Part shown: positions 1,435 to 42,760 of the stretch, one piece after another | Layout of the letters: each line of letters opens with the position of its first letter | How positions within the stretch are numbered: the stretch's first letter is position 1 | Source of the DNA: a virus | Direction: 5' to 3' (one strand) | IMG/VR virus record: IMGVR_UViG_3300034375_010007 | Location: 1-64,000 of that record | DNA length: 64,000 nucleotides | Translations under genes and position numbers: made by a program | The notes under the pieces: model-generated | What the model was told of the DNA's origin: nothing | Seen by the model: only the letters and a program-made list of their open reading frames with translations | The model's database searches: none

Positions 1435-3369
1435 TTATGAGTCGCGCCATAGATTGTTTGAAGCAAACTTAATTACTTCTTCTGCTGAATCCTCGTTATA
1501 ACCGTAGTCATCGATTAGAGTCTGGACCATTGCGTTAAACTTCTTTTGCTGCTTAACATCTCTGGACTTGGACTTTGTCACGATACGAGAAATATCTCTT
1601 ACAGAAGCAACCAACTTGGATTCAATTGCCTCACGGAGCGGACCGTAAGAACGCCAGTCGATTACCTCACCTCTACGAAGCTTCGCAAACATGTAAGAAG
1701 TAATATCGGCACGGAAGTTGTTCTTTGCAGAACCCTTGATACCAATCTGCTCCTCAATAGAGGAAAGGAACTTCTCATCTGCTTCCATCTCTTCGTTTGT
1801 AACACGATCCTTGACTTTGGTGCTATTGACGTAAGCCTCGGCGTGGTCAAGGTAGTTGTTGAATAGGGACTCAGCCTGCTCTTCGTAAGCTGTAACGAAA
1901 GCCTTCGTGATTTCCTTCTCAAGGATAGAAAGATACTCTTCGTGAAGAACCTTTTGAAGGAAAGCCAAGCAACGGCTACGCTCATCAGGGTTTACGATTT
2001 GCTCTTTTACTTGCTTGATAAGAGACTCGCGAATAGAGATTGGAGTAATCATATTCTTTGTGGAGTCGGCTAGTGCAGCATCGATCGCCTTCATGATAAA
2101 GCGAGTAGAGATACCAGTCATACCCTCGTCCTCTACCTCTTCGCGAAGATCCTTGATATCAACCTTCTTGATGAGACCCTTCTCAACAATCTCCTCACCG
2201 TTGTAGATCTTCATCTTGGTTAGGGCATCAACCTTGTTGGAAGGCTTGAGGCGAGAAAGAACGGAGAACATTGCAGCAACCCGTAGTGTGTGCGGAGCAA
2301 TGTGACTATCAAAGTCAGAACGACCGATCAACTTCTCATAGATTCTTACTTCCTGATCAACCTCAAGGCAGTAAGGAACATTGACACGAACGATACGGTC
2401 AAGGATAGCCTCGTTTGTGTGCTCAGCCTTGAACTTGTTCCACTCTGCTTCGTTACAGTGAGCAAGAATAACACCATCAAAGTAAATCATTGCTTGCTTG
2501 CCTGGAGAAGGAACTGACTTCTCCTGGGTTGCTGTGATCATTGTGTGAAGGAACTCAATCTCATTCTTGAAAACCTCAACGAACTCAACGATGCCTCGGT
2601 TGCCGACGTTGAACGCTCCGTTAAGAGACAGAACACGCGGATCGTCCTCTGGGTATAAGTCAAGCTTTGAAATGTCCTCAGAGCCGATTAGAAGGCTTGT
2701 ATCCTGTGTGTTTGGATCCATTGGAGGAACAACACCGACACCCTTGCGCCCACGAACAGAGAAAGAAGACTCTGTGATTGGGAACTTTGTAAAGTCACCA
2801 CCGTACTCCTCTAGAAGTCGGTGACGGCATACAGGGCAAAGGTCGCCTTCAATCTTGATGCCGTATGTCTCGGCAAACTCATCACGCAAAGAACGCGGGA
2901 TAAGGTGAAGAGGCTCCTCACGGATTGGACAGCCATCCAAAGCATAGATTGGATCACACTGCTCAAGTGCTCCCTTGATGTGCTCTACAAGAGCAGACTT
3001 GCCTGCGCCTACCGGACCGAGAAGAAGAAGAACCTGACGGCTCTCCTCGCCCTTCATCGCAGCAGAGTGAAGGAAACGAACAACCTTCTCCAAAGGACGC
3101 TCCATACCAAAGAACTGACCTGAGAAGTAATCGTAAGTCTTTACTGTCTCGCCATTGAAAAGTTTATTACAGCGCGGGTCAGTCTCGTCTAAAACTGTAA
3201 CCCCCTCACCGATAATCTTCTCGTAAAGTCTTTTGTGAGCAAGAGCAGGAATGTTGCGATCTTCCTCAATAAGTTTTAGGTAATCTTCCAGTACCCCGGA
3301 GAACTTCTCTCTCTTCTTACTCTCACGGTGTTCTCTAACCGATTCGAGAAACTTGCTTGTTGTGGTCAT
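1435..3369 (-). CDS. prkA: PrkA family AAA+ serine protein kinase (YeaG-like)
   Basis: From the ATG at 3369 the protein is 644 aa, the usual length of bacterial YeaG/PrkA. The start is chosen because GGGAG sits 7 bases before it; an ATG 21 bases further upstream would overlap spoVR. Visible motifs are the Walker A GPVGAGKS (about residue 114), a CPVC pair (about 180) and FDGVILAHCNEAEW, typical of PrkA, with the kinase-like C-terminal part intact. Bacterial PrkA proteins are cytoplasmic AAA+ proteins linked to starvation, stress and sporulation, reported as kinases and in Bacillus as a protease-like ATPase. It is the last gene of the yeaH-spoVR-prkA operon, one base after spoVR. No disruption is seen. 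Confidence 0.95.
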   Translation of the reverse strand: MTTTSKFLESVREHRESKKREKFSGVLEDYLKLIEEDRNIPALAHKRLYEKIIGEGVTVLDETDPRCNKLFNGETVKTYDYFSGQFFGMERPLEKVVRFLHSAAMKGEESRQVLLLLGPVGAGKSALVEHIKGALEQCDPIYALDGCPIREEPLHLIPRSLRDEFAETYGIKIEGDLCPVCRHRLLEEYGGDFTKFPITESSFSVRGRKGVGVVPPMDPNTQDTSLLIGSEDISKLDLYPEDDPRVLSLNGAFNVGNRGIVEFVEVFKNEIEFLHTMITATQEKSVPSPGKQAMIYFDGVILAHCNEAEWNKFKAEHTNEAILDRIVRVNVPYCLEVDQEVRIYEKLIGRSDFDSHIAPHTLRVAAMFSVLSRLKPSNKVDALTKMKIYNGEEIVEKGLIKKVDIKDLREEVEDEGMTGISTRFIMKAIDAALADSTKNMITPISIRESLIKQVKEQIVNPDERSRCLAFLQKVLHEEYLSILEKEITKAFVTAYEEQAESLFNNYLDHAEAYVNSTKVKDRVTNEEMEADEKFLSSIEEQIGIKGSAKNNFRADITSYMFAKLRRGEVIDWRSYGPLREAIESKLVASVRDISRIVTKSKSRDVKQQKKFNAMVQTLIDDYGYNEDSAEEVIKFASNNLWRDS

Positions 3370-3370
3370 G

Positions 3371-4678
3371 CTAAAACTCCCATATTTCATCTTCCACTAT
3401 GGTGATTAATTTCACCTCACCACGCCAAAGGGCTTTAATGTGATCAAACACTTTACGCGCGTAATTCATTTCTAAATCTCTACCATCGTGCTCGTGAACG
3501 AGAGAAAGTGTTCCATCTTTCTCAATCTCTTCTACGAATACGACCGGTATTCTGTTGAGACCTACATTCGTAATCATCGCATCACGAACTTTCTCCCAAC
3601 CTTCTACATCCGATATATCATCTACTATACTAGATTGTTGCTTCCTATTAAAGGAATAAGAGAAATAATTATGCTCTCTCATAAATTCTTCATCAGTATA
3701 AAAACGTAGGAATGTTATATCGTTATGAACTTCTCGGATTGTCTTTGCTTCCTCGAAACCTTTCTCTTCAATAATCTTCTGGAAGAGAGTGTATCCTAAA
3801 TGATAAGGATTGATTTGTCCAAGGTGCGGACGAATAACTTGATTGTGTAGCTTTACAAAAGGCAAATAAAGACCATCAGGAAGATTTAGTTCGTTGATAA
3901 TCTTTTGATGGATTGTGCAAGCCCATCCTTCGTTCATTACCTTTGTAAGAGCCTGCGGAATAAAGTATTTTGAAGATTCTTCAACAATAAGAATAAGATT
4001 TCTCTCCCACTCCTCAAGATTTTTGCTGTGCTCGGCAATAAAACGAAGAAGATTGTACTCAGGACGTATAGGAACCTTGCTTAGATTTGGATTGTAGTCC
4101 GGATTTTCCATCATCTTCTCTTTTTCAGACTCAATAATCTCAGCACGGGTCTTATATTTGATGCCTGGGTATCTTGGAACCTGATATTTGATTGAGTGAG
4201 CGGCATCTAGGATGTTTTCAACTTTATCAATACCGATTGAAGGATCCTCAATCAACTGACGAACGTATTTCGCAGCAGATTTGAAGCTTGAAATAATGTT
4301 TGAAGGGTCTGTGTGAGCAAACATTCGGTTCTGTTTGAAGAAATCCGAGTGTCCAACACAGTGAGCCATCGTTAGAATGTGAATGTAAAGAGCATTTTCT
4401 CTCATCAAGTAAGCGATTGACGGATTTGAGTTGATAATCATCTCATATGGAAGCCCAGTTTGCCCCATATTGTAAAGAGTGTGAGTTCTTTCATACTCTT
4501 TTCCGTAAGACCAGTGTCGATAATGCGTTGGAAGACCTGTGTAAGCCATCGCTCCAAGCATTTCAGCGTAATCAATGATCTCGTAATCGATTGGAAACCA
4601 ATCTAATCCTAAATCTTCGCCTACACGACAGATTTTGTCGTCCCATTTTTGTAGATCTGCGACTGTCCAGTCACTCAT
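3371..4678 (-). CDS. spoVR: SpoVR family protein (YcgB-like)
   Basis: A 435-aa SpoVR-family protein, slightly shorter than B. subtilis SpoVR and E. coli YcgB. The family block MNEGWACTIHQKI, then PHLGQINPYHLGYTLFQKI, lies around residues 247-300. SpoVR is needed for spore cortex formation in Bacillus, but the family is widespread in non-sporing proteobacteria, almost always next to prkA and yeaH; its biochemistry is unresolved. The start overlaps the yeaH stop as ATGA and its stop lies one base before prkA, so all three are translationally coupled. Length and conserved blocks suggest an active gene. Confidence 0.93.
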   Translation of the reverse strand: MSDWTVADLQKWDDKICRVGEDLGLDWFPIDYEIIDYAEMLGAMAYTGLPTHYRHWSYGKEYERTHTLYNMGQTGLPYEMIINSNPSIAYLMRENALYIHILTMAHCVGHSDFFKQNRMFAHTDPSNIISSFKSAAKYVRQLIEDPSIGIDKVENILDAAHSIKYQVPRYPGIKYKTRAEIIESEKEKMMENPDYNPNLSKVPIRPEYNLLRFIAEHSKNLEEWERNLILIVEESSKYFIPQALTKVMNEGWACTIHQKIINELNLPDGLYLPFVKLHNQVIRPHLGQINPYHLGYTLFQKIIEEKGFEEAKTIREVHNDITFLRFYTDEEFMREHNYFSYSFNRKQQSSIVDDISDVEGWEKVRDAMITNVGLNRIPVVFVEEIEKDGTLSLVHEHDGRDLEMNYARKVFDHIKALWRGEVKLITIVEDEIWEF

Positions 4679-5919
4679 TTTGTTTTACTCCCACCAAAAA
4701 GAGATTTGAAAGCCATCCAGATGTGCTCTGTCTGTCCAATCATCACTCTCTTGAACTTTTTATCAGTAATCGGTCTCAATCTTGCCCATAGATTATCTAA
4801 CTCTTCGTTCTTCCACGCCGAAAAGTTTGCCCATGGGCTGTTTTTGACTCCACTATCTTCCAAAGAATCGTCATCCAAGCCTTCGTAACTCTCATTTATC
4901 TCACAATAAGCTGTCAGTTGACTAATATCTTTGATTTCTTTGAACAAATCTATACATTTTTCGTTGTCGGAAGCCCAGTTTTCACCATCGCCACAATAAA
5001 ATGTATAAATATTCCAAGCATTTGGATGATATTCTTTCTCAACTATCTCCATTTGCATTTTCAAAGCAGATGAAATGATCGTTCCACCAAAAGTTCCAAC
5101 TTTAAAGAAGTCATCTTCGCTTACACGCTCGGCATTGGTCGAGTGAGAGATAAAAACAACCTCAACTTTCTCATATCGGTGGTTCAAGAACTGATAAAGC
5201 AGGAAAAAGAAGGATCTTGCAAGGTATTTGCGGTCCTGAGACATTGATCCAGACACATCCATCAGAAAAAAGATGACTGCTGACGAGTTTTCTTTCGCTT
5301 TTGGCTTAATGTGATGGTATTTGAGGTCATCTTTGTGAAAAGGAAAGCGCTCATCGGACTCTGGGTCGTAAGCACCGGTCTTTTCAGCCATTTTTTGACG
5401 ACGGATCTTTCTTTTTAGTGTTTCTTTCTTTGAAAGTCTCGGTCGGATGCCCTGAAAGCGATATCCTTTACGTTTTACGGTCTCTTGTGTGATAAAACGG
5501 AACTGCTTCTTCTCTAAATCTGGAAGTTCAAGGTCTGCAAACAGATATTCAGCCAACTCTTCAAGCGAAACCTCTACGTCGTAGTATTGATCACCTTTTT
5601 TATCGGATGCTTTGCCTGTTCCTTGTCCAGAACCCTTTTGGGCACGTTGTTTTCCGATTTTTTGGCCTCTTTTTAGAGAATGCTCGCCACCAGATCCAAC
5701 AGTTTTGTTTTGCTGTCCAGATCCGTAGACAAATCGGTACTCCTTGAGCCCTCTAACAGGAACTCTAATCTTTTTCTTGCCGTTTTGACCGATGATTGAC
5801 TCCTCAGCAATCACATCCTTGATAGATTCTTTGATTGCTTTTTCAATCTTCTTTTTATGCCGCGATCGATCGCTTGCGGCGCGGTCTACAATAGACTCGT
5901 GTTTACGAAATACGCTCAT
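4675..5919 (-). CDS. yeaH: YeaH/YhbH family VWA-domain protein (DUF444)
   Basis: A 414-aa protein, close to E. coli YeaH (427 aa). The N-terminus is basic (RSRHKKKIEKAI), the middle is Gly/Lys/Gln-rich, and a von Willebrand A domain follows with the metal site MDVSGSMS at about residues 218-225 and a second metal-site threonine in GGTIIS. YeaH is the VWA partner encoded with PrkA, reminiscent of MoxR/RavA-VWA ATPase-adaptor pairs (analogy, not proof). First gene of the reverse operon. A weak AGGA lies only 2 bases before the ATG. Confidence 0.93.
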   Translation of the reverse strand: MSVFRKHESIVDRAASDRSRHKKKIEKAIKESIKDVIAEESIIGQNGKKKIRVPVRGLKEYRFVYGSGQQNKTVGSGGEHSLKRGQKIGKQRAQKGSGQGTGKASDKKGDQYYDVEVSLEELAEYLFADLELPDLEKKQFRFITQETVKRKGYRFQGIRPRLSKKETLKRKIRRQKMAEKTGAYDPESDERFPFHKDDLKYHHIKPKAKENSSAVIFFLMDVSGSMSQDRKYLARSFFFLLYQFLNHRYEKVEVVFISHSTNAERVSEDDFFKVGTFGGTIISSALKMQMEIVEKEYHPNAWNIYTFYCGDGENWASDNEKCIDLFKEIKDISQLTAYCEINESYEGLDDDSLEDSGVKNSPWANFSAWKNEELDNLWARLRPITDKKFKRVMIGQTEHIWMAFKSLFGGSKTK

Positions 5920-8139: not shown

Positions 8140-8146
8140 ATAACAC

Positions 8147-8152
8147 TATTTA
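8147..8152 (+). promoter_or_regulatory. Candidate late promoter element TATTTA (head-internal protein)
   Basis: TATTTA exactly 7 bases before the ATG at 8160, with no SD in between or upstream, so transcription from this element would give a leaderless message starting at or next to the ATG. Confidence 0.45.
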
Positions 8153-8159
8153 TTACGCT

Positions 8160-9224
8160 ATGAAAAAACTACTTGAATCCTGGGATCGATTTCTCAACGA
8201 AGAGAGCCTCAACGAAAAAGATGACCGATGCACACGTATCGCCAAGCGCAAATATGATGTTTGGCCATCAGCATATGCGTCTGGTGCCGTCGTCAAATGC
8301 CGTCAAGGAAAGATTTGGAAGGGCGTCAAAGAAGACGTTGAAGCCTCTGAACTTCTTGAGAACACAGAATATGAAGATCTCTTAGAGGAAGCAAAGAAAA
8401 AGAAAGCAGGCACCGAGTCAAGCAAAGAAAAAAGCTTAGCCGATTGGTTTGGACGCAAAGGCGCCAAAGGTAAGACCGGTGGTTGGGTTGATTGTAATGC
8501 TCCCGATGGAAAGGGTGGGTACAAGCCATGTGGTCGTCAGGAAGGCGAGAAGCGCTCTAAATACCCTGCTTGCCGTCCAACTCCGGGTGCTTGTAAGGAA
8601 AAAGGCAAAGGCAAGTCTTGGGGCAAGAAAGCCGCAAAGAAAGAGTCGCTTGAACGACGCATCGAAAAGATGGTTATCAAGGAGTTGCAGGAACAACTTT
8701 TCAAGCCTGGATTGAAGCATCACGTTAAAAACAACATCCCTCTAACTGAAAACATTTACCGCATTGGTTCTCCTTGCTACTTCAACGTAATCAAACAAGG
8801 TCGCGAATACTACAAGATGGGTCTTTACGAGACAACAAACCCAGATGAGATTGATTTGTTTGAGAATACCGATCTTGGTGAGTGGGCAATGTTTGAAGGT
8901 GAAGAAGTTCCTTTGGATTTCCCAATGTATGTGGAAGAGATCAACGAAAAGAAAGATCCACCAATCGGAAAGCCAACAAAGAACACTGGTGGCGGCAAGA
9001 AATATAAAGTTTATGTTCGCAACCCAAAAACAGGCAACGTCAAGAAGATTACTTACGGTGATTCCAAAGGTGGTCTGAAAGGAAACTGGAACAACGCCGA
9101 GGCACGCGCATCTTTCGCAGCACGTCACAAGTGTGCTGAAAAGAAAGATCGCACGTCGCCTGGATACTGGGCTTGTAGAGCACACAAAGACTTCGGCAAG
9201 AACGTTCCTGGCCGCTTCTGGTAA
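8160..9224 (+). CDS. Capsid-targeted modular Cys-rich virion protein
   Basis: A 354-aa protein in segments: an N-terminal tag MKKLLESWDRFLNE ending in L-N-E, a T4 gp21-type protease site; a module with DRCTRIAKRKY and VWPSAYASGAVVKC (about 22-50); a Lys/Gly-rich module with WVDCNAP, YKPCGR and YPACRPTPGAC (about 107-145); a middle part with no clear fold; and a C-terminal module ITYGDSKGGLKGNW, EARASFAARHKC and SPGYWACR (about 295-345). From memory, these short cysteine modules recur in large phages and some giant viruses, often combined. Probably packaged in the prohead and processed. No SD. Confidence 0.65.
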   Translation: MKKLLESWDRFLNEESLNEKDDRCTRIAKRKYDVWPSAYASGAVVKCRQGKIWKGVKEDVEASELLENTEYEDLLEEAKKKKAGTESSKEKSLADWFGRKGAKGKTGGWVDCNAPDGKGGYKPCGRQEGEKRSKYPACRPTPGACKEKGKGKSWGKKAAKKESLERRIEKMVIKELQEQLFKPGLKHHVKNNIPLTENIYRIGSPCYFNVIKQGREYYKMGLYETTNPDEIDLFENTDLGEWAMFEGEEVPLDFPMYVEEINEKKDPPIGKPTKNTGGGKKYKVYVRNPKTGNVKKITYGDSKGGLKGNWNNAEARASFAARHKCAEKKDRTSPGYWACRAHKDFGKNVPGRFW

Positions 9225-9225
9225 G

Positions 9226-9513
9226 GTGGAAGATTTCCCATTTGACGAAAAACATTTAATTGAGAACCTCTTTTTAAGAGAGTTCAAAGATACTGTTGAT
9301 GGCGAAGAACTAATCTGGCATCAAGACCGGGAAGATCGGATCATAACTGTATTAGAATCAAATAACTGGAAACTTCAAATGGATAACCAACTACCTATTA
9401 TGTTGGAAACAGGAAAGAAATATTCTATTCCTGCTATGTCTTTTCATCGCGTGATAAAAGGCGATGGCGCTCTAAGGATTATTGTGGAGAAGAAAAATGA
9501 AACTTATTCTTGA
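9226..9513 (+). CDS. Conserved small phage protein, cupin-like
   Basis: Taken from the GTG at 9226, two bases after the previous stop; the frame is open further upstream but that part overlaps the preceding gene and looks non-coding. The 95-aa product has the pattern WHQDREDRIITVLESNNWKLQ, then LP-x-MLETGKKYSIP and FHRVIKG, which I recognise as a recurrent phage protein resembling a single cupin barrel. Function unknown. Ends inside the next gene (17-base overlap). Confidence 0.6.
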   Translation: MEDFPFDEKHLIENLFLREFKDTVDGEELIWHQDREDRIITVLESNNWKLQMDNQLPIMLETGKKYSIPAMSFHRVIKGDGALRIIVEKKNETYS

Positions 9514-9520
9514 AAACTGG
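9497..9520 (+). repeat. 24-bp direct repeat, copy 1 (tag-encoding)
   Basis: The first 24 bases of this gene, coding MKLILENW, are identical to the first 24 bases of the gene at 9721. A third gene (10158) differs by a few synonymous-type changes. Identity at the DNA level suggests recent copying of the tag or ongoing recombination. Confidence 0.85.
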
Positions 9521-9724
9521 CGAAAGCTATTGGAAGGAGACGTAATAAACTTTCCTTCTAAACCAACCGCCTCAGAAGACGACATCAAAAAAGTTATCAG
9601 TCTTGAAGACGACATTGGAAATCTTTTAGCATCCATATACGGCAACCAATCTGAGATCCCCATTGCTGTAATCGAGATAATGGATTCGCTTGTAGATGCC
9701 GTTGAGGAATCTCTCAAAAAATGA
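9497..9724 (+). CDS. Small capsid-targeted internal protein
   Basis: A 75-aa protein from the ATG at 9497 (GGAG 6 bases upstream). Starts MKLILENWRKLLEG, the tag shared with its neighbours, here with L-L-E as the possible cleavage site. The rest (about 62 aa) is acidic and helical, no family recognised. By analogy with T4 internal proteins it could be packaged in the head and injected with the DNA. Overlaps the next gene as ATGA. Confidence 0.6.
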   Translation: MKLILENWRKLLEGDVINFPSKPTASEDDIKKVISLEDDIGNLLASIYGNQSEIPIAVIEIMDSLVDAVEESLKK

Positions 9725-9744
9725 AACTTATTCTTGAAAACTGG
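9721..9744 (+). repeat. 24-bp direct repeat, copy 2 (tag-encoding)
   Basis: Identical to 9497-9520; encodes MKLILENW at the start of the 145-aa protein. Confidence 0.85.
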
Positions 9745-10158
9745 AAAAGATTCCTAACAGAGGCAAAAAAGTATATTTGCCCTCCTGCCACACAGGATCT
9801 TGAATTAAACACAAAGAACCGTGACTCTGCCATCAAAGCAGAGCACATCCAGTATGGTCCACTTAATCTTGCGGACGAAGAGTATTATGATAGATTGGCA
9901 GATCATTGGAACACAACCATTGATGTGGCCAAAGAATCCAACTGCGGCAACTGTGCTGCGTTTGATATCTCTCCTAGAATGGATGAATGCATGCCAGGAC
10001 CAGTTGAAGACGAAGAAGGTCGTTTAGGTTACTGCTGGATGCACAGCTTTAAGTGCCACTCCGCGCGTACATGTTATACATGGGCTGCCGGCGGTCCCAT
10101 CGACACAGATGAAACATCCCACGACTGGCAGGATAGAAGCCCTATCGAGGAGAAGTAA
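9721..10158 (+). CDS. Capsid-targeted protein with Cys-rich domain
   Basis: A 145-aa protein starting MKLILENWKRFLTE|A, the shared tag with an L-T-E protease-type site. The body has paired cysteines (SNCGNCAAF, then RMDECMPG, LGYCWMHSFKCHSARTCYTW), which could bind metal or an iron-sulfur cluster. I recall similar Cys-rich phage proteins but cannot assign a function. Start overlaps the previous stop (ATGA); its stop overlaps the next start (TAATG). Confidence 0.6.
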   Translation: MKLILENWKRFLTEAKKYICPPATQDLELNTKNRDSAIKAEHIQYGPLNLADEEYYDRLADHWNTTIDVAKESNCGNCAAFDISPRMDECMPGPVEDEEGRLGYCWMHSFKCHSARTCYTWAAGGPIDTDETSHDWQDRSPIEEK

Positions 10159-10826
10159 TGAAACTTCTACTTGAAAACTGGAATAAGTTCCTAAACGAAG
10201 AAAAGAAAGGCGCTTACTCGTTTGATTATGACGAGACCCTTATCAAATACAAGCCAGATCCAGAGGATCCGCAGTTCAGTGTTTTATATGATAAGCCTCA
10301 CGAAGAAAACATTGCAAAACTAAGAGAACTCGCTGCTGCTGGTGAGACTGTTTATATTGTTACTTCCCGATCAAAGCGCACAGGAGACAAGTTTCCTTGG
10401 GATACAGCACCAGACCCAGAGGATTTGGTTGCTGATCTAAATCTTCCAGTCAAGTCTATTCATTACACCAATGGAAACTTGAAGGCTGAGACACTTTTAT
10501 CTCTTGGTGTTATCGAACATTGGGACGATGATGAAGATGAGATTGCGGCAGCACAAGAAGCAGGCATCAAAGCAAATCTTGTTTCGGGGGATGTTGAACT
10601 TCGCGAGACAATGTTGTCTATGTGGGCTTATTGTCTTCACGAAGGTGGTGTTGAAGTTGCTCCAAAGATGAAAAAGTATCTTGACAAGCATCCTTATATG
10701 GAGCCAGACGGTCTTCAAGAGAAATGGTCCGAGAAATATAAAAGATCTATTGACTGTAATAATCCCAAAGGTTTCTCACAGAAAGCACATTGTGCAGGAC
10801 GAAAGAAAAGAAAAAAGACTAATTAA
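10158..10826 (+). CDS. Capsid-targeted HAD-like phosphatase with phage C-terminal module
   Basis: A 222-aa protein. Residues 1-14 are the shared tag MKLLLENWNKFLNE. Then comes a HAD-fold domain: FDYDETLI (nucleophile and acid-base Asp), VYIVTSRSK (motif II), and HWDDDEDEIAAAQEAG (motif IV acids). The C-terminus (about 190-222) is SIDCNNPKGFSQKAHCAGRKKR, a short Cys-containing module I associate with large-phage virion proteins. A packaged phosphatase would be delivered with the DNA; substrate unknown. The start overlaps the previous stop. Confidence 0.7.
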   Translation: MKLLLENWNKFLNEEKKGAYSFDYDETLIKYKPDPEDPQFSVLYDKPHEENIAKLRELAAAGETVYIVTSRSKRTGDKFPWDTAPDPEDLVADLNLPVKSIHYTNGNLKAETLLSLGVIEHWDDDEDEIAAAQEAGIKANLVSGDVELRETMLSMWAYCLHEGGVEVAPKMKKYLDKHPYMEPDGLQEKWSEKYKRSIDCNNPKGFSQKAHCAGRKKRKKTN

Positions 10827-11856: not shown

Positions 11857-12183
11857 ATGAAGATTTCAAAAAAAGAACTTAAAAGATTGATTACCGAGGA
11901 ACTAACCAATACTTCTTCTGTTCTGCTAGAGATGCCGCAGATGAATATGTTGGACCCAGCCTCCAACAACTACGAGAAGGACCCTGATGGCTATGAAGGC
12001 GAAATGGCAAAGAGATCTCTTTATCATATGGCTGCTCAAGCTCAGCAGCTTCACGATATGCTTCATGATGATGAAAACCTTGAGCCTTGGGTTGCGGCCA
12101 AAATCACAAAAGCAGCCGACTATCTTGAAAAAGCATTTAAAGCTATCTCATATGAAAAAGGCCCAGGTAGAGGAAAGATGTAA
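11857..12183 (+). CDS. Conserved phage protein with amphipathic N-terminal helix
   Basis: A 108-aa protein starting MKISKKELKRLITEEL, a motif I associate with many proteins of large aquatic phages, with I-T-E as a possible gp21-type cleavage site. The C-terminal half (LYHMAAQAQQLHDMLH, then EPWVAAKITKAADYLEKA) is a recurrent all-helical phage domain. Probably a virion or prohead component. The stop overlaps the next start (TAATG). Confidence 0.6.
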   Translation: MKISKKELKRLITEELTNTSSVLLEMPQMNMLDPASNNYEKDPDGYEGEMAKRSLYHMAAQAQQLHDMLHDDENLEPWVAAKITKAADYLEKAFKAISYEKGPGRGKM

Positions 12184-17443: not shown

Positions 17444-17758
17444 GGGGGGTGACAGGTTTCGACAGGGTAAGGAAGATGGATAGTGCAGGTTGTGACAGCT
17501 AACTCAATCACATAAATCTTTAGTTAGAAACATATAACTGCAAACGACGCAAATTACGGTTTAGCACTAGCTGCTTAATCCCCGGTTGTTCTTCACCGGG
17601 TGTCCAAGAAGAACAAACAAAAACAAAACGCTTTTGCTTTTTTGAGCGTATCGAATCAAATTTGATACTTTGTTTATTTAGAGAAATAAACTAAACCTGT
17701 GAATGACTTGAAGTTGGATATACTTTGGACGCGCGTTCGAATCGCGCCACCTCCACCA
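17444..17758 (+). ncRNA. ssrA: tmRNA (one-piece), tag ANDANYGLALAA
   Basis: The 5' end GGGGGTG pairs with CACCTCC at the 3' end, followed by an encoded A-CCA (17755-17758). A T-arm with TTCGAAT and a GCGCG/CGCGC stem is present. The mRNA-like part runs from GCA at 17540 to TAA at 17576-17578 and codes for a 12-residue tag ending ALAA, as expected for a proteolysis tag. tmRNA with SmpB frees stalled ribosomes and marks the product for ClpXP. No smpB is seen in the window, so host SmpB would be used. There are no CDS between 17411 and 17829. Confidence 0.95.
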
Positions 17759-19443: not shown

Positions 19444-19652
19444 TAGTTAAAAAAGGAACAACAGTTTATCCTTCCATAAAAGGAGAATATAATTTTCATT
19501 ATCCTCAGATCGAGGATCCATATGTTTTACTGATGGACATAGAAGTTGACAGGCTTCATTGGGCAGAAAGAGATAATAAAGTTGCTGTAAAAGTTTGTAG
19601 TCCTGAAAACTATCTACCTTATAGTGTACTATGGTTAGAGACGCCGGTATAG
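19440..19652 (+). CDS. Small protein of unknown function
   Basis: A 70-aa beta-rich protein (MIVKKGTTVYPSIKGEYNF, then VAVKVCSPENYLPYSVLWLE). Start overlaps the aldolase stop (ATGA). It ends 10 bases into the tRNA-Thr gene, so the C-terminus overlaps the tRNA. A real gene is plausible but not certain. Confidence 0.45.
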   Translation: MIVKKGTTVYPSIKGEYNFHYPQIEDPYVLLMDIEVDRLHWAERDNKVAVKVCSPENYLPYSVLWLETPV

Positions 19653-19718
19653 CTCAGTTGGTAGAGCACCATTCTTGTAAAGTGGATGTCCACAGTTCGA
19701 ATCTGTGTGCCGGCACCA
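19643..19718 (+). tRNA. tRNA-Thr (UGU)
   Basis: A 76-base cloverleaf: acceptor GCCGGTA/TGCCGGC, D-arm TAGCTCAGTTGGTAGAGCA, anticodon loop CTTGTAA (anticodon TGT), T-loop TTCGAAT, and encoded CCA. Confidence 0.95.
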
Positions 19719-19737
19719 TAAAACTAAATATTTCCTT

Positions 19738-19813
19738 GGGGATGTAGCTCAGTTGGGAGAGCATCAGTTTTGCATACTGAGGGTCGTAGGTTCGATTCCT
19801 ATCATCTCCACCA
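19738..19813 (+). tRNA. tRNA-Ala (UGC)
   Basis: A 76-base cloverleaf: acceptor GGGGATG/CATCTCC, anticodon stem TCAGT/ACTGA with loop TTTGCAT (anticodon TGC), T-loop TTCGATT, and encoded CCA. Confidence 0.95.
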
Positions 19814-19818
19814 TTTTA

Positions 19819-19895
19819 GGGCGGCTAGCTCAGTTGGTTAGAGCAGTTGTTTTACACGCATCAGGTCGGGAGTTCGAATCTCTCGCCGCCCACCA
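19819..19895 (+). tRNA. tRNA-Val (UAC)
   Basis: A 77-base cloverleaf: acceptor GGGCGGC/GCCGCCC, anticodon loop TTTACAC (anticodon TAC), T-loop TTCGAAT, and encoded CCA. The anticodon stem GTTGT/GCATC has one T-T mismatch. Confidence 0.9.
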
Positions 19896-19899
19896 TAAT

Positions 19900-19975
19900 C
19901 AGGGCGTAGGGCAGGGGATGTCCCGCTGGTTTTGGGAACCAGAACACGTTGGTTCGATTCCAACCGCCCTGACCA
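19900..19975 (+). tRNA. tRNA-Pro (UGG)
   Basis: A 76-base cloverleaf: acceptor CAGGGCG/CGCCCTG (C at position 1, usual for proline), anticodon stem CTGGT/ACCAG with loop TTTGGGA (anticodon TGG), T-loop TTCGATT, and encoded CCA. Confidence 0.93.
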
Positions 19976-19980
19976 TTTTT

Positions 19981-20071
19981 AGAGAGGTGTCCGAGTGGCC
20001 GAAGGAGCAGCATTGGAAATGCTGTGTAGGTTCAAAGCCTACCGGGGGTTCGAATCCCCCCCTCTCTGCCA
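19981..20071 (+). tRNA. tRNA-Ser (GGA)
   Basis: A 91-base class II tRNA: acceptor AGAGAGG/CCTCTCT, anticodon stem CAGCA/TGCTG with loop TTGGAAA (anticodon GGA), a long variable arm, T-loop TTCGAAT, G discriminator and encoded CCA. Confidence 0.95.
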
Positions 20072-42358: not shown

Positions 42359-42760
42359 ATGGCTTCTGGATTGGCACCAAGATTACCGCTGGTTTTTGAT
42401 GATGTATATGGTCCGTATGGGCTGATCACTGATTTTAGTTCTCTCGCAAAGCAAAACTTAAAAATGCTTATTTTGACAACTCCTGGCGAGAGGATGATGG
42501 ATACCGACTTTGGAGTCGGCTTGAAGAAATATTTATTTGAACAGAACACGGCGTCTACTTATTCTGAGATTGACAGCAATATCAGACAACAGGTACAGAG
42601 ATATTTGCCTTATATTGGCATTGATAGAATCGACTTTACTGTCCCCGAAAACAACCCGGATCTTTTTCCTAACAATATATCAGTTTCTATATTGTTTACG
42701 ATATTGCCACTTCAAACCAATGCGATTCTAAATGTAGAAGTTAATAATAACACTAACTAA
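42359..42760 (+). CDS. T4 gp25-like baseplate wedge subunit
   Basis: A 133-aa protein of the GPW/gp25 family: LITDFSSLAKQNLKMLILTTPGERMMDTDFGVGLKKYLFE, the conserved T-x-P-G-E-R...FG...G block. Structural part of the baseplate wedge next to gp6. The gene starts after AAGGAGG (10 bases). Confidence 0.93.
   Translation: MASGLAPRLPLVFDDVYGPYGLITDFSSLAKQNLKMLILTTPGERMMDTDFGVGLKKYLFEQNTASTYSEIDSNIRQQVQRYLPYIGIDRIDFTVPENNPDLFPNNISVSILFTILPLQTNAILNVEVNNNTN

Follow-up and report, generated by a model that had tools for sequence, protein, structure and literature searches.

What is achieved when proteins of different kinds, encoded side by side in a phage genome, begin with nearly the same residues? 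This question is raised by positions 8160-10826 of the IMG/VR virus record IMGVR_UViG_3300034375_010007, of which we analyzed the first 64 kb (64,000 of 81,489 bases; hereafter, the window). The source is an uncultured marine relative of phage T4. Four open reading frames (ORFs) of this region start with MK(K/L)(L/I)LE(N/S)W..(F/L)L, which forms part of a 14-residue N-terminal sequence (the tag). The internal proteins packed by T4 are few, and those that are known overcome host defenses; as stated in published work, the T4 protease gp21 cuts after L/I-x-E. Judging from the sequences, core targeting and cleavage of the tagged proteins, taken together, are highly probable, and the tag itself is very probably a lineage-specific capsid-targeting propeptide of 14 residues, cut by the gp21 homologue of the phage. 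Delivery of the cargo into the host appears rather probable.

The tag was first noticed as a feature of four consecutive, otherwise unrelated proteins. It is indeed present at 8160, 9497, 9721, and 10158, and no similarity was found among the four proteins beyond residue 14, which rules out plain homology as the source of their common start. The genes are clustered but not strictly consecutive, an untagged ORF lying between the first two (Table 1), and the HAD gene extends the region from the proposed end at 10205 to 10826. The endings L-N-E, L-L-E, L-T-E, and L-N-E were all read as described, except that the second (L11-L12-E13) comes one residue early. For this second ORF, a TTG at 9482 is also a possible start, but the ATG at 9497 has the better ribosome site, and a counterpart with the same tag occurs in another IMG/VR locus (L005:974). 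When the window was shuffled 60 times with a first-order Markov model, the full tag was matched 0 times and its core 5 times in total, whereas the real window has three full-tag and four core matches, every one at a plausible gene start. When residues 2-20 of 80 ORFs of the record were compared, 18 non-homologous pairs reached the threshold, versus 0 pairs for residues 41-59. Chance is ruled out as the source of the tag by these shuffles and this N-terminus comparison, together with the scrambled-pattern control and the site enrichment given below. Two more tagged genes were found in the rest of the record, outside the window. One (record position 78084) sits in the interval between portal and protease, which corresponds to the gp67/gp68 position of T4.

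A gp21-like protease, the other component to be sought in the same genome, was also detected. T4-type TerL, portal, and S77/gp21-type head maturation protease genes are located at 73223-79596 of the record. In profile comparison, the protease matches phrog_207 with an E value of 9e-59, and comparison with the solved T4 gp21 (5jbl) gave an E value of 9.6e-19. Aligned to 5jbl, it has His in LDHP and Ser in GISSRG at the active-site positions where the T4 crystal chain reads L-N-A-P and G-V-A-S-R-G; we take these alanines to be active-site mutations. Both the family profile and the catalytic His and Ser place the record protease in the S77 (gp21) family. Because a gp21-type protease is present in the record and the L-x-E tag occurs far beyond chance across hundreds of loci, the predicted capsid packing and cleavage of the tagged proteins can be regarded as well supported on sequence grounds.

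Tag statistics were obtained from 321 nonredundant copies, in which the search pattern itself dictates K2 and E6. The other conserved residues are L3 (91%), L4 (81%), W8 (98%), R9 (79%), Y/F11 (91%), L/I12 (81%), and E14 (81%), and residue 13 is free. An [LI]-x-E ending, as expected of a gp21 site, is found in all four window tags and occupies residues 12-14 in 72.6% of the copies, compared to 0.3-4% at later control positions. Where the canonical site is missing (66 copies), a shifted [LI]-x-E is present within residues 11-24 in 42 cases (about 14% expected). Since L-x-E is mostly kept when the spacer varies, selection maintains the cutting motif independently of how far it lies from the core.

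The tag is widespread in IMG/VR. Its DNA pattern matches at least 119 stretches, versus 10 for a scrambled-order control, and a Phe-5 variant matches at least 120, including many that the first pattern had not hit; in 36 larger contigs, there are 110 matches to the tag pattern and 0 to the reversed pattern. From the fetched loci, 425 unique tagged ORFs were collected, which fall into 168 cargo families (single-linkage clusters), so that the same N-terminal sequence, whose 14 residues lie within the 10-19 of T4-type capsid-targeting propeptides, is seen on many unrelated proteins. The T4-type capsid protein Gp23 is encoded in 16 of 18 tagged contigs, including 8 of 8 that were not picked for having a protease. 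Among the 36 contigs, all five of at least 180 kb contain one S77 protease each, and the protease is flanked by tagged ORFs in four loci (L142, L145, L147, and L148). The best match of the tag to cultured phage records had an E value of about 8, short queries being insensitive. Neither the tag letters nor any report joining capsid targeting, metagenomes, and gp21 was found in the literature searched, whose coverage leaves out most subscription journals. In one locus (L038, position 7284), a class A tagged ORF has a Tat-like stretch, RRSFLKKAATAAGAVAASQ, following the tag.

The cargo set differs from phage to phage. Pfam domains on representatives of the tagged families include NUDIX, protein kinase, poly(A)/CCA polymerase, AAA_33, guanylate kinase, HD, RNase_T, HAD, NT5C, HNH, ParB_N, DUF192, zeta toxin, and GNAT. 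In the window, the HAD protein conserves the DxDxT motif as FDYDET. Its model (predicted local distance difference test score, pLDDT, of about 80-90 in the core) matches HAD phosphatases, among them the 3' phosphatase of T4 Pnkp (5uj0; template modeling score of 0.62 by target length), and it hits the PHROG polynucleotide kinase family (phrog_415) with an E value of 9e-9 while having no kinase domain. It is perhaps a phosphatase of the T4 Pnkp 3' kind, and its predicted substrates are probably nucleic-acid or nucleotide phosphates. Its C-terminal module KWSEKYKRSIDCNNPKGFSQKAHCAGRKK (residues 186-217, window 10713-10808) is common to cyanophage ORFs; in Synechococcus phage Bellamy, this module makes up a small ORF, with terL lying two genes downstream. 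The Cys-rich protein at 9721 has relatives annotated as HiPIP; its own model (pLDDT of 43) is too poor to judge the fold, and a PDB search yielded no match. In Actinomycetia phage DSL-LC01 (L240, 5656-6390), a HiPIP-annotated relative of this protein directly precedes the genes for capsid maturation protease and capsid.

Besides this tag, a second one, MKLTKSQLKQIIKEEL (pattern MK(I/L)(T/S)KxxLKxIIKEEL), was identified in the fetched loci, where it is carried by 73 families with no other relationship; eight such ORFs lie within 3 kb in one locus (L182, 5502-8476), and the second tag also adjoins the prohead protease in the same phages. A search of sequence records for the second tag gave a match only in one uncultured 484-kb record, short queries again being insensitive. 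Moreover, other phages have the Cys module seen in the first tagged protein (DRCxRIAKRKYDxWPSAYASG) behind other starts, namely MKYLFESWSSYLEE, MKLTTEEINKIIEEEITSVLSE, MKITQSQLRRIIKEELEAVLSE, and MGRLEKIIKEVLTE, and behind AYIENIIKEILSE in Flavobacterium phage immuto, all of which end in L-x-E. Immuto and Microcystis phage Mel-JY01 are the nearest cultured relatives by TerL (46-47% identity). In immuto (L141, L330), N-terminal tags peculiar to this phage recur, ENFDLKKFLVENKLT.. and KKQILSEQF(K/R)RMQxLAGII, one of which adjoins its gp21 protease, and as a cultured relative immuto is a workable test system. No clear capsid tag was seen in about 150 of the 190 kb of Mel-JY01.

In the mechanism that we propose, the tag helix (residues 3-11, LLLENWRKY) would attach to the core or scaffold of the assembling prohead, perhaps as the protease and the major capsid protein do through their N-terminal propeptides. 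The gp21 homologue would then cut after L/I-x-E and free the cargo inside the head. Less certainly, most cargo would stay in the virion and enter the host with the DNA, where enzymes (the HAD phosphatase and, elsewhere, kinases, NUDIX proteins, and nucleotidyltransferases) could act at once, like T4 Alt and IPI. When a profile of the LLLENW core was compared with 265 T4 ORFs, gp21 ranked first (LLIETW, 12.5 bits; next 4.1), gp68 fourth, gp24 eighth, and gp23 tenth. In the tagged phages, the starting segment of the capsid protein ends in LLENQAKELLRE, the next residue being mostly A or S, and the protease starts with KLLREYYELCEGGVCQDLLTE or similar. These matches and starts suggest that the tag imitates the core-binding propeptides of protease and capsid protein. 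In a broader form of this proposal, to which we give an even chance, two or more interchangeable tags (the LLLENW and MKLTKSQLKQIIKEEL types) that mimic core-binding propeptides would load a rapidly changing set of well over 100 kinds of effectors and enzymes into the head; the gp21 homologue would clip off the tags, and the cargo would be delivered with the DNA to counter host defenses and repair damaged RNA before phage genes are expressed.

Several results weigh against packing by a T4-like route. The full-tag profile fails to single out the T4 internal proteins among the 265 T4 ORFs (ipIII at rank 168, ipII at 199, and ipI at 250), and in 24 of the 321 copies no [LI]xE was found, either at the canonical site or shifted as far as residue 24. 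In addition, of the 36 large contigs, 26 showed no S77 protease, a lack that would fit fragmentary contigs but is no proof of it, and a control scan for the S77 base rate in random long contigs gave only 12 stretches, with a single contig above 60 kb, too small a set for a base rate.

The same observations could be read differently. In the main alternative, some or most tagged proteins might reach the core and be cut there, serve in the core, in size control, or as chaperones, and then be degraded or expelled before DNA packing, like most T4 gp67/gp68. One tagged gene per head cluster at the gp67/gp68 position and the likeness of the small acidic tagged ORFs to core proteins agree with such a role, and the tagged copy in the head cluster may well be an assembly-core component. 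Overall, this alternative is unlikely, in view of the many catalytic cargos without a known assembly use (NUDIX, CCA-type nucleotidyltransferase, kinases, HNH, and zeta toxin) and of a repertoire of 168 families that varies by phage. It is very improbable that the tag directs its carriers elsewhere, for example to the host membrane or a replication compartment, with L-x-E as a coincidence: amphipathic N-terminal helices can bind membranes, but the enrichment of L-x-E, the tagged genes within the head cluster, the same spacing as in the T4 capsid-targeting sequence (CTS), and gp21 itself as the best T4 match all argue otherwise. A DNA-level translation or recombination element with no role in the head is hardly credible, since, although a single 24-mer (ATGAAACTCCTACTTGAAAATTGG) recurs in 37 of the 321 copies, as copied or recombined tag DNA would, the tag core is encoded by 184 different 24-mers, L-x-E is kept when its position shifts, and the tag is linked with Gp23/S77 phages. 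The diversity of 24-mers indicates that selection acts on the peptide, and the recurring one hints at recent shuffling of tag DNA.

A motif just ahead of the first tagged gene fits late expression. The motif CTATTTA occurs 10 times on the + strand of the window and 0 times on the - strand, with six copies at most 70 bases upstream of a gene, and it also precedes the structural genes at 42359 and 62561. By motif match only, it is a candidate late promoter of this phage group.

Table 1. Positions of tagged ORFs, accompanying genes, and candidate promoter motifs (window coordinates unless another source is named)
Feature	Position	Strand	Remark
CTATTTAT box, candidate late promoter	8146..8153	+	Ahead of first tagged gene; motif match only
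CTATTTA sites	8146, 12691, 16202, 21173, 42336, 62535	+	Ahead of genes
Tag MKKLLESWDRFLNE	8160..8201	+	N-terminus of first tagged ORF
Tagged ORF, 354 aa, Cys-rich modules (DRCTRIAKRKYDVWPSAYASG; CNAPDGKGGYKPCGR; KKDRTSPGYWACR)	8160..9224	+	
Untagged ORF, 95 aa, GTG start 9226 (open frame 9133-9513)	9226..9513	+	Separates tagged genes 1 and 2
Tagged ORF, 75 aa, tag MKLILENWRKLLEG, site L-L-E at 11-13	9497..9724	+	
Tagged ORF, 145 aa, Cys-rich, tag MKLILENWKRFLTE	9721..10158	+	HiPIP-like from relatives' annotation
Tagged ORF, 222 aa, HAD phosphatase, tag MKLLLENWNKFLNE	10158..10826	+	FDYDET motif
ORF with second tag class MKISKKELKRLITEEL	11857..12183	+	
ORF with second tag class	L002 16099-16494		
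Tagged ORF, tag MKLILENFKKFINE	Record 67357-67674		Outside window
Tagged ORF, tag MKLIMENWRQFSEQE	Record 78084-78569		Outside window, portal to protease interval

Other genes of the window include a group for PrkA kinase, SpoVR, and DUF444 (YeaH-like) at 1435-5919 on the - strand, against the direction of the other genes. This phage record also has a tmRNA gene (17445-17758; tag ANDANYGLALAA), with five tRNA genes downstream at 19643-20071.

A recognizable capsid-targeting tag would allow what uncultured marine phages inject to be searched for in metagenome sequences instead of by virion proteomics. It points to enzymes of nucleotide and RNA processing, kinases, and toxin-like proteins as candidate virion cargo, gives single-residue predictions of their mature N-termini, and may offer a new encapsidation tag. 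Its origin is hinted at by its resemblance to the N-termini of T4 gp21, gp68, and gp23.

Among known systems, the T4 CTS is the closest in layout. It is likewise a short N-terminal peptide on otherwise unrelated proteins in a genome with a gp21-type protease, and the T-even internal proteins are reported to form a diverse defense set joined only by the CTS (PMC3012670), of which IPIII is required on one Escherichia coli strain (PMC9391042). As read from the T4 record, IPII and IPIII begin with MKTYQEFIAE and IPI with MKTFKEF...ITE. The Y4..F7-I8.E10 spacing of IPII and IPIII is that of W8..Y11-L12.E14 in the tag, and in IPI the targeting part is also apart from the cutting part, with a longer spacer. 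In IPIII, residues 4 and 7 serve targeting and residues 8 and 10 processing (PMC9026906); their equivalents in the tag, W/F/Y8..F/Y/H11-[LIVM]12.E14, were found in 243 of the 321 copies, against an internal background of 17 in 73,176. However, the CTS has 10 residues and the tag 14, with an extra LLLEN core, and the tagged marine phages carry a far wider cargo with many enzymes, plus a second tag class. Homology of the whole tag with the propeptides of the T4 internal proteins is not supported by their profile ranks of 168-250, and because even IPIII ranks only 168 of 265, the tag is not a demonstrable CTS homologue; by sequence comparison, it is a functional look-alike of the CTS in layout. 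T4 Alt, a packaged ADP-ribosyltransferase, is also a head-borne enzyme whose N-terminal propeptide is removed by gp21, but this propeptide is another one and the tagged enzymes belong mostly to other families; a YH[G/A/T]-type motif in 14 nonredundant tagged ORFs only suggests ADP-ribosyltransferases. The ejection proteins of phages of the phiKZ/SPN3US type depend on a protease whose lineage and cut motif differ from the gp21 type, and we know of no short tag common to unrelated proteins in those phages. They are similar to the tagged proteins in that, according to two reports, many of them are cut by a prohead protease and packed with the DNA (PMC10052503, PMC7411985).
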